Positions 3,687-49,832 of a stretch of 64,000 nucleotides of DNA are shown in pieces. Below the pieces are notes generated by a model. The model saw nothing but the letters and a program-made list of their open reading frames with translations, was not told where the DNA came from and searched no databases. This stretch comes from Asterochloris sp. CNOR1 (lineage: Eukaryota > Chlorophyta > Trebouxiophyceae > Trebouxiales > Trebouxiaceae), in NCBI GenBank assembly GCA_963969365.1, contig OZ017754.1:1116001-1180000 (forward strand), read 5' to 3'. The position numbers were made by a program, and so were the translations under genes. Within the stretch, counting starts at the first letter, position 1; each line of letters opens with the position of its first letter.

Positions 3687-5831
3687 TTGCTCATTGCACT
3701 CTCAAAGTGTCAGGCATGTCACTCCCTGCAGCGGGGGTTTGGTGCAAACCTTCCAACATACCCTGCAGAATACAGGCGGGAACTACATGGCACGGTGCCG
3801 GCACCCGCCCATGTCCAATTGTTCCCCTGTGAGCTACCAGCTTACAGGGATCCTGCCCCTGATGCGGCACAACTGAACGCTGACATCACTGCCGCAGAGG
3901 TTGAAAGAGCCTTGCGGCGGGCCAAGCGCGGTAAGGCAGCGGGCCATGATGGCCTGTCTGCAGACCTGCTCAAGGATGCAGCTCCTGCCCTGCTGGACAA
4001 GTATGTTGACCTTTTCAATCTTATGCTGGCGGGTGACATTCCTGATGCACTATCCATGGGCATCATCACGGCTGTGCACAAGACTGGTGACAAATGTGAC
4101 ATGGCCAATTACAGGAGCACCACAGTCACATCGCCACTCAAAAAGGTGTTTGATTCTGTCCTAGAGTGCAGACTTACTGCATGGACAGAAGAGCATGGCC
4201 TCTGAGCTGCCAGCCAGGCGGGGTTTCGCCCTGACCAACGCACCAGTGATCAACACTATGTCCTCCATACTCTGCAGGACAAGTACTGCCGTGAAGGGGG
4301 ACAGCTCCACTGCTGTTTTGTGGATTTCCGCAAAGCCTTCAACACTGTGCCACGGGATGTGCTATGGGCAGTGCTCAGTAGCATTGGTGTTGGGGGCTGC
4401 TTCCTGTCCTGCCTGCAGGCCATGTACAGCAAAGACTGTGCAGCAGTCAGGACAGCTGATGGCCTCAGCAAGCCCTTCAGATGCCATCAAGGGGTACAGC
4501 AGGGAAGTCCATTGAGCCCGGCGCTCTTTGGTATCTTTGTTGACGCTCTGGAGCGTCTCATGCAGAGGAACTTTGGCCTCGATGTACCAGAACTTGACGG
4601 GCATGCTGTTCCCCTGCTGCTGTACGCAGATAACCTGGTGCTCATCAGCCGCTCAGCTATGGGGTTGCAAGGCCTGCTGGACACATTGCATCGGTTTGCC
4701 ACCTGCCGCAGACTGCAGGTCAGCATCAAGGAGACCGAGGTGCTTGTGTTCCAGCCGCGCAGGCCTGCGCTGGCCAGTCTGCCAACGCTCCACTACAACC
4801 GCAAGGCCCTGAAGAAGGTCCACCAATTCAAGTACCTTGGCCTTTCACTGGAGACACAGGGTGGATTCAGGGAGGCCATTGCACAACTGTGTGCAAGCGC
4901 ACGAAGGGCTGCCTTTGCTGTGCGGCACCGATGTTGTCGGCAGGGCATCTCCAGCTTGGACTGCATCCTCAAGCTGTTCAACGCTAAGGTGTTGCCCATC
5001 TTGTCATACGGCTGCGAGGTTTGGTTCGGCACCTGCTGCAAGGACACAACCAAGCGGCGGTGGGCTGAGCCAGCCGAGCAGGTGTACAGGGATTTCCTGC
5101 GCGGCATCCTGGGCGTATCTCGGCGTGCACCTACCGCTGCTGTGTATGCAGAGTTTGGCACATATCCGTTGGCTGTGCACTGGGCTAGGGTGGCGGCTCG
5201 CTTCCAGTCCCGTGCCCAGTGCATGGAGGAGGACAGACCTGTGCGCTGGGCAGCCACATACTGGGGGGTCCCAGGCCCTGGCACAGACGTGACTGACGCT
5301 GAGGGCATGGCTGCTGCAGCAGAGGTTTGCAAGTTCAAGGCTGATTGCAGCAGCCCAGGGCCCATCCTTGTCCCTGAACACTTCCGTGACGTTAAGCTGC
5401 AGGAAGGCTTGGAGCCATACCTGCATCATGTCAAGATTGCCAACCACAGGCGGGCACTGGCCCGCCTAAGGCTCAGTTGCAGTGATCTCAGGGTCTGCAC
5501 AGACAGGATTATAAAGCCTGTGCGCCCACCCAGGGAGCAAAGGGTATGCTGCCTATGCTCCACTGGTGCTGTGGAAGATGAGTTGCACATCTTGACAACA
5601 TGCCCAGCCATGTCTGGTCTCCATGCAAGCTGCCCTGACCTCCAGCGAGAGCACAGAAACTTAGCCAGTGTGTTTGCAGGTTGCGAGCTGCGCTCACTGG
5701 GCTGGTTCGCATGCCAGGCCTTGCGAGAGCACAGCCGCCTACTGGAGGCCATGGGCCGGCCACTATGGCCTGCCAACTATGTACCACAGACCAACTGCAG
5801 GCCTGGTCCCCGCAGGCGGCGACGCCCATAG
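3687..5831 (+). pseudogene. LINE reverse transcriptase ORF, inactivated
   Basis: The frame encodes the RT N-terminal region (RAKRGKAAGHDGLSADLL), the palm with FVDFRKAFNTVPRD, QGVQQGSPLSPALF and LLYADNLVLIS, then thumb/connection and a zinc knuckle (CCLCSTGAVEDELHILTTC). Two lesions are visible. TGA at 4203-4205 interrupts the frame just before ASQAGFRP, with the same frame resuming directly after it. The catalytic box reads YADN instead of YADD (codon AAC), removing one metal-binding aspartate. Reading is otherwise open for about 700 codons, so decay is recent. An active copy elsewhere in the genome would probably lack both changes. Confidence 0.9.
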
Positions 5832-48622: not shown

Positions 48623-48757
48623 AGCAGCTGTCCTAGGACGGCAGACTGCTGAACAGGGTCATGCAGCTGAGATTGGGTGGCACAATTCTAACCACTCGAC
48701 CTCGTCGGTCAACTCCTAGTCAAACCATATCAAAATAAAAAAACCCATGCTTGCAGC
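48623..48757. promoter_or_regulatory. Bidirectional promoter region, COQ8/DUF3253
   Basis: 135 bp separate the COQ8 ATG (minus 48622) from the DUF3253 ATG (plus 48758). An A-rich stretch lies at 48731-48743. No TATA box is clear. Confidence 0.5.
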
Positions 48758-49272
48758 ATGTCCCCCAAGAGAAAGCGTGAGGATGGGTGCAGTTCCAGCA
48801 AGAAGCCAAGAACGGAAGTACGGAGACATGCCACCTTGCATCAAGGTGGTCAGCTGAGTGCAGCATGCATCCTGAGTGCACTGCTGCCTGCAGGAGGCCC
48901 CTGTTAAGACTGATGGTGCCCTTAGGAGCAGTATGAAGGACACAATGATGCAGCTGCTGCAGCAGCGCGGCTCTGACAAAACATTGTGACCCAGCGAGGT
49001 GCCGAGGAAGCTGAGACCAAAGCATTGGAGGCTTCTCATGGATGAGACAAGGGCAATTGCCTGTTGCTGTGCCAGGGAAGGCCTCCTTCAGGTACCCAGC
49101 GTTGAGCTGTAAAGCAGCTGCTCTGGTTCAGCTCCGTGGGCACGCTTCAATCAGATTTCCAACTTGCGTGGTGCAGGTGGAGCAGAAAGGCAAGGTGGTG
49201 GATGCAGCTGAAGCCAAGGGGCCCATCAGGCTCCGCCTTTGCAAGGAAGGCAGCAGCGAGCAATCCCATTGA
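48758..49272 (+). CDS. DUF3253 protein, candidate selenoprotein (in-frame TGA)
   Basis: Three exons join in phase: 48758-48817, 48894-49091 and 49177-49272 (final TGA), coding 117 residues. The basic N-terminus is MSPKRKRED-x-CSSSKKPR. The DUF3253 core follows: SSMKDTMMQLLQQRGSDKTL, then TGA (48987-48989), then PSEVPRKLRPKHWRLLMDET and VVDAAEAKGPIRLRL. In the family as I recall it, the position before PSEV is a conserved cysteine (T-I-C-P-S-E-V). The interrupting codon thus falls exactly on Cys, one base away from TGC or TGT. Every other codon and both introns are intact. Either UGA encodes selenocysteine, or this is a single-nonsense pseudogene. Family function is unknown. A SECIS-like fold lies 3' of the stop. 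Confidence 0.75.
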
Positions 49273-49296
49273 CACCCTGTTGAAATTGCGCGAAGT

Positions 49297-49375
49297 CAGC
49301 TTACAGGTCCATGACAGAGGGGCTGCCCAACAGCTCACCTTGCTGTGTGCTCATCTCGATCCACCCTGTTAGCTG
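49297..49375 (+). promoter_or_regulatory. SECIS-like element in the DUF3253 3' UTR (candidate)
   Basis: It starts 25 bases after the stop codon. Helix I pairs 49297-49307 (CAGCTTACAGG) with 49365-49375 (CCTGTTAGCTG), ten pairs with one U-U mismatch. It flanks a 5' ATGA (49311-49314) and a 3' CGAT (49357-49360), the positions of the SECIS quartet. Inside are a weaker helix (316-323 with 349-356), unpaired AA at 49329-49330, and a mini-hairpin CAGC...GCTG (49331-49345), as in form II elements. Weak points are the 14-base quartet-to-AA spacing, bulges in helix II and a competing GGG/CCC hairpin. Confidence 0.35.
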
Positions 49376-49832
49376 TGCAGTGGCATAAAGATGCTACACA
49401 GCAAGAGAAAGTGGTCAACATTCAACAGAACGCGCACTAGAGAATAGCTTTCCTGTTCTGATTTATTGTGTGAAACAGCTGATTCATTGCCCCGTCTATT
49501 GGCATGCATGACAGACAGCAGCTGTTGGACAGTGCTTCAATGCAGGAAGGTTACTGGAGATAAATGCACTGGGTAAAAGAATGGATCACAGATTCCAGAT
49601 GAGGGCCTTTACAGGGCTGGTAGTAGGCCTGTGTATACCTGTGGCGCACCCTGCGTCACAGCAGCATGTGAAGGACTCCTGCTGCCAGCAATGCAGCAAA
49701 CGTCGTGCACCCCAGCAGGCTCAGACTGGCTGGGGTGCATCTGACGAAAGGTGGTCCTCATCAATCAAAGGAGTATTCTTGGTGGGGGAGTCAGGTGCCC
49801 TGCAGGTCACAAACAACATGGTGCAGGCAGCC

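Follow-up and report, generated by a model that had tools for sequence, protein, structure and literature searches.

In the green alga Asterochloris sp. CNOR1 we find a spliced gene of the DUF3253 family that is interrupted in frame by a single TGA, at the position where its nearest relatives carry a cysteine. We consider it probable that this is a real and functional selenoprotein gene. As the UGA falls at the relatives' Cys position and the genome makes selenocysteine (Sec), the product may be a new selenium-containing protein. In the mechanism that we propose, the UGA would be decoded as Sec where the CPSE subfamily of DUF3253 proteins has Cys, under the direction of a 3′-UTR SECIS. The candidate for this signal is element A (Table 1), with element B a weak alternative, and the SECIS would act together with tRNA-Sec and the other Sec machinery of the alga itself. 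The frame, the family, the position of the TGA, the tRNA-Sec and SepSecS genes, two further genes with TGA at Sec sites and the SECIS-like shape of element A are observed; the insertion of Sec and the function of element A are inferred from here on.

By our own reading of the window (the whole 64-kb stretch of DNA analysed), the DUF3253 gene consists of three exons spanning 48758-49272 on the plus strand and has a product of 117 residues. This confirms the initial annotation of a three-exon frame that is in phase and open save for one TGA. Both introns are GT-AG and in phase 0. The gene had, however, been placed as starting at 48894, whereas exon 1 lies upstream of that point. An out-of-frame ATG is also present at 48747, upstream of the assumed start, and may belong to an upstream ORF or to another first exon. 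The basic peptide encoded by exon 1 has what we take to be the appearance of a bipartite nuclear signal. The TGA, which separates GSDKTL from PSEVPRKL, is the sole in-frame stop ahead of the gene end, and third-position GC is 0.65 before it and 0.68 after it. Elsewhere in the window, an open frame at 4206-5828 encodes a reverse transcriptase domain (78 bits to RVT_1).

Table 1. Features of the DUF3253 gene and its 3′ region, in positions of the window.
Feature	Position	Strand	Description
Exon 1	48758..48817	+	Encodes MSPKRKREDGCSSSKKPRTE, basic; start codon inferred
Intron 1	48818..48893	+	GTACGG...TGCAG, 76 bases, phase 0
Exon 2	48894..49091	+	Cys/Sec motif and first two thirds of the DUF3253 domain
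In-frame TGA	48987..48989	+	Codon 52 of 117, proposed to encode selenocysteine; aligned with the Cys of CPSE
Intron 2	49092..49176	+	GTACCC...TGCAG, 85 bases, phase 0
Exon 3	49177..49272	+	Encodes VEQKGKVVDAAEAKGPIRLRLCKEGSSEQSH; stop TGA 49270-49272
Element A, SECIS-like	49297..49375	+	10-pair helix I, ATGA 49311-49314, CC 49327-49328 then AA, mini-stem, CGAT 49357-49360
Competing hairpin	49339..49405	+	11-pair outer stem 49339-49349 / 49395-49405; displaces element A in longer RNA
Element B, second stem	49452..49546	+	GUGA/GGA core, stable in context, neither AA nor CC where a SECIS usually has them

With X at the TGA the product matches Pfam DUF3253 (PF11625) at 79 bits (E 3.1e-22; curated cut-off 22.1), and with C in its place at 83.7 bits. 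In a six-frame search of the whole genome (56.4 Mb in 21 contigs) the gene appears as two pieces, one of 42.3 bits with one TGA inside and one of 27 bits that corresponds to exon 3 and has no TGA; no second DUF3253 copy was found in that search. As a control for the TGA we inspected 38 Pfam pieces found in the genome, seven of which have a stop inside. In two the stop is TAA, and in the remaining five it is a TGA that lies, by our reading, at or beyond the exon edge, GTGA splice donors explaining three of these. The DUF3253 TGA, unlike those of the control pieces, is mid-exon and has homology on both flanks.

The residue expected at the TGA was examined in an unbiased set of homologues, drawn from 398 genomes of a single bacterial phylum, whatever residue stood at that column. 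A DUF3253 match is present in 54 of these genomes (56 match rows), and 53 rows were fetched; those left out were G005, which is in a biased set described below, G271, which covers 32 profile positions only, and the second G357 row, a 22-bit partial match. At the TGA column the 53 sequences have Cys (30), Ser (7), Glu (5), Asp (5), Ala (4), Gly (1) or Thr (1). Cys is found in 30 of the 31 homologues in which P[ST][ED] follows and in none of the 22 in which it does not (loci L137-L189), dividing the family into two subfamilies, one with Cys and P[ST][ED] and the other with S, E, D, A, G or T and no such motif. The algal protein has PSE directly after the TGA, as in the CPSE subfamily, and each of its 20 nearest homologues has Cys; the alignment behind this was pooled, and 51 of its sequences came from a Cys-biased search. 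On the strength of the Cys-P[ST][ED] pairing, the algal PSE and these nearest homologues, the TGA takes the place of the Cys of a well-marked subfamily. The initial annotation, which had the TGA at a conserved Cys of DUF3253, thus holds for the CPSE subfamily but not for the family at large: with S, E, D, A, G or T at the column in 23 of 53 homologues, the fold does not depend on this site, and DUF3253 as a whole evidently tolerates other residues there.

No stop lies inside the DUF3253 match in any of the 56 bacterial rows, and no TGA orthologue is among them. In the biased bacterial set, for which one of the two search patterns contained Cys, 80 of 80 loci have Cys. Among plasmids there were six records, with Cys in all five that were read, and the viral contigs searched contained no relative. 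The matches include a single solved chain, PDB 2ns0, named only Hypothetical protein. The fold is, we assume, helix-turn-helix-like, and DUF3253 presumably does not belong to the thioredoxin-fold families. That Cys occurs so strictly together with P[ST][ED] points to a reactive residue at a helix start, one that Sec would make more nucleophilic. In the alga, Sec would then serve as a more reactive Cys, perhaps as the redox switch of a small nuclear protein. Among the bacterial neighbour ORFs of at least 90 aa (124 of the 143 listed were scanned) no family occurs in more than four members, so gene neighbourhoods provide no functional link.

Judging by its genes, this is a genome that decodes UGA as Sec. 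Both parts of the Sec machinery that we searched for, tRNA-Sec and SepSecS, are present. Four tRNA-Sec genes with anticodon TCA were identified by ARAGORN and score 66-76 bits against the Rfam tRNA-Sec model (cut-off 47); two are on contig C7 and one each on C17 and C6, one C7 copy being identical to the C17 copy. SepSecS was recovered as six exon pieces, one of which has TGA as its last codon, at a splice donor. Two genes have TGA at known Sec sites. In SelT an exon ends in KVYIAFCTSUSMR with TGA at the Sec site (C8:1476600; L013:669-671) and more Rdx exons follow (57 bits against Rdx once the pieces are joined); its normal end is also TGA, and a strong SECIS-like element lies 3′ of the stop (L013:1863-1927). 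A glutathione peroxidase (GPX) on C15 reads VIMNLASEU, with TGA at the catalytic site (C15:1152164; L020:1234; GSHPx 69 bits). Its SECIS-like element (L050:3274-3345) is placed downstream of the last exon found, the final GPX exon not being identified. A second GPX, on C2, is of the Cys form (NVASQCG). Control searches for MsrA, SelU-like and TXNRD-type genes gave no clear TGA at a Sec site; as these genes were only partly assembled and no TXNRD was identified, the search is no count of the genome's selenoproteins.

Element A begins 24 nt 3′ of the gene stop. The initial annotation described a ten-pair stem flanking ATGA and CGAT with an AA bulge and an apical mini-stem, and these stems are present, but it is CC, then AA, that stands 12 nt after the ATGA. 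The ten pairs of helix I include one U.U mismatch, helix II has nine pairs with mismatches and the mini-stem has five; the spacing of 12 is that of the SelT and GPX elements. According to the available text of one SECIS study, CC replaces AA in the SECIS of mammalian SelM and SelO, and in mammals only (PMC3316567). The distance from the UGA to the core in the DUF3253 mRNA is 239 nt, and so exceeds the minimum of 51-111 bases quoted in the same text (PMC3316567). We scanned with a rule of ATGA, AA or CC 11-13 nt further on, a downstream GA and two stems. Each 3′ region gave exactly one match, of −25.3 kcal/mol for SelT, −20.5 for GPX and −26.6 for DUF3253, all with a spacing of 12. Over both strands of the window there are four matches at −14 or below, element A being the strongest, and in the other loci (255,812 bases, both strands, some overlapping) there are three at −20 or below, those of SelT, GPX and L035. 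The L035 match, SECIS-shaped and on the minus strand near position 2159, has −30.2 kcal/mol and is near a Cys-type peroxiredoxin-like gene. When 49273-49573 was shuffled 20,000 times with its dinucleotides preserved, 33 shuffles reached −20 kcal/mol and two reached −26.6, although the scan rules (AA or CC, spacing) were fixed after the elements had been viewed, so that both the scan and the shuffle figures flatter the result. A first, AA-only scan of the window gave 12 matches at −10 or below, with element A third.

The element fares less well in longer RNA. Once the RNA reaches 49405 or beyond, where the competing hairpin can form, the mean probabilities of the element A helices fall to 0.00-0.04. 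When spliced RNA is folded from the start codon onwards, the mean probability of helix I is 0.06-0.70 for 3′ ends at 49376-49400 and 0.00-0.03 for ends at 49405 or beyond, while helix II is at most 0.30 at every end tried. If the 5′ flank is cut to 60 nt, helix I reaches 0.95-0.98 for ends at 49376-49400. The SelT element keeps its fold in all flanks tested, up to 80 nt (0.89-1.0), and in the GPX element most of helix II is stable in flanks and helix I is not. With 40- and 80-nt flanks, three chance matches of the same scan have 0.29-0.85 against 0.02-0.03 for element A, and with 10-nt flanks 0.11-0.85 against 0.72. A stricter scan of the inner fold picked up the elements of SelT and GPX but missed element A. 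When the AA/CC rule was dropped, a looser scan gave 37 matches over both strands of the window; 24 lie at −20 or below, and 14 matches other than element A equal or beat it. Hence the SECIS proposed in the initial annotation stands as to its shape, which is present and rare in shuffles, but the fold is displaced in longer RNA and missed by the stricter scan, and as a recoding signal we find element A only partly convincing.

Searches with structural models were less informative. Rfam gave no SECIS match in the window, the DUF3253 gene or its 3′ region; it likewise gave none in the SelT and GPX regions, and its silence on element A therefore says little. For the genome (133 of 644 candidates scored), Rfam SECIS_1 yielded one weak match below the cut-off, at L012:1501-1567 (C8:1184466; 22.6 bits). 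A covariance model built from the SelT element alone gave 22 window matches, element A absent among them; several of the best were short and partial, and the model was rejected as useless for testing element A. Element B is probably a chance structure, of a kind expected by chance.

The main rival is a freshly broken gene or null allele, in which the Cys codon became a stop by one base change and the SECIS-like stem is there by chance. We judge this unlikely, while giving it real weight. A single change converts TGC or TGT to TGA, the family is dispensable, being present in 54 of the 398 genomes examined from one phylum, element A loses to its competitor in longer RNA, and loose SECIS-like folds at −20 or below occur 24 times on the two strands of the window when the AA/CC rule is dropped. 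Against this stand 117 codons without other lesion, a domain match that is intact past the TGA (the 27-bit exon 3) and third-position GC that is alike on either side. Of the 41 single-base nonsense changes possible in the coding sequence, one lands on codon 52, so a lesion would have to strike one place in 41 and then precede an element reached in 0.2% of shuffles. Genes with one lesion are common in any genome, and new selenoprotein families are rare. Our preference for a functional selenoprotein balances the one-in-41 lesion and the 0.2% element against the commonness of one-lesion genes and an element weaker than its controls. The selenoprotein reading of the initial annotation is in part supported, by the Cys column, tRNA-Sec, SepSecS, the TGA codons of SelT and GPX and a SECIS-shaped element that is rare by chance under our scan, but weakened by a SECIS fold that loses to another hairpin in longer context.

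Far less probable, even taken together, are readthrough that inserts a different amino acid, an incorrect gene model and alternative splicing that leaves the codon out. Around the codon there are nine GT-AG pairs that are in frame and span 40 bases or more, three of them using the donor GTGACC, which contains the TGA, and GTGA donors do occur in the genome; every such pair would nonetheless remove part of the core motif, and DUF3253 homology is uninterrupted across the TGA. The context is UGA CCC, as against the readthrough context CUA, and TGA is the normal end of both the DUF3253 gene and SelT. Least probable of all is a base-calling or assembly error, for which one substitution would be enough, because 21 contigs for 56 Mb suggest a long-read assembly, the site is outside any homopolymer and the coincidence of a one-in-41 site with a SECIS-like element applies equally.

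In the open-access library searched we found no paper containing "DUF3253", PF11625 or IPR021660, none combining "selenoprotein", "winged helix", "UGA" and "novel selenoprotein", and no described role for the CPSE motif. An algal selenoprotein survey lists 42 families, three of them new (PDI_e, AhpC_b and SymSEP), and its available text does not name DUF3253 and has no word beginning with DUF (Jiang et al. 2020; PMC7539508). The smallest green-algal selenoproteomes, of 0-5 genes, are attributed there to Trebouxiophyceae, Sphaeropleales and Streptophyta (PMC7539508). A DUF3253 selenoprotein is therefore likely, though short of proven, to be novel on the available texts, which also include a Hypo family (PMC7539508) and the Ostreococcus hypothetical proteins 1-3 (PMC2375036). 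A family outside the usual redox folds would, if true, widen the range of uses for selenocysteine and hint at a reactive-Cys function of the CPSE motif, common to DUF3253 proteins across bacteria. More tentatively, this could be a new selenoprotein family with Sec in a small, non-thioredoxin and presumably helix-turn-helix-like protein with a nuclear-type basic tail, acting as a selenium-based redox sensor on nucleic acid; we regard this fuller picture as doubtful.

The proposed gene has precedents among families of the algal survey, such as AhpC_b, in which an algal protein has Sec and its bacterial homologues contain Cys (Jiang et al. 2020; PMC7539508, available text). In the same genome, SelT and GPX are likewise spliced, have TGA at the Cys/Sec site and an ATGA-GA stem with 12-nt spacing in the 3′ region; the DUF3253 element differs from theirs in carrying CC at the apex, where they have AA, and in being less stable in context. 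The algal protein matches the whole domain of the bacterial CPSE subfamily and shares its flanking K[ST][LIVF]-x-PSEV, W, LM, R and GPIR residues, differing from it in a TGA for the Cys codon, a spliced eukaryotic gene and a basic N-terminus.
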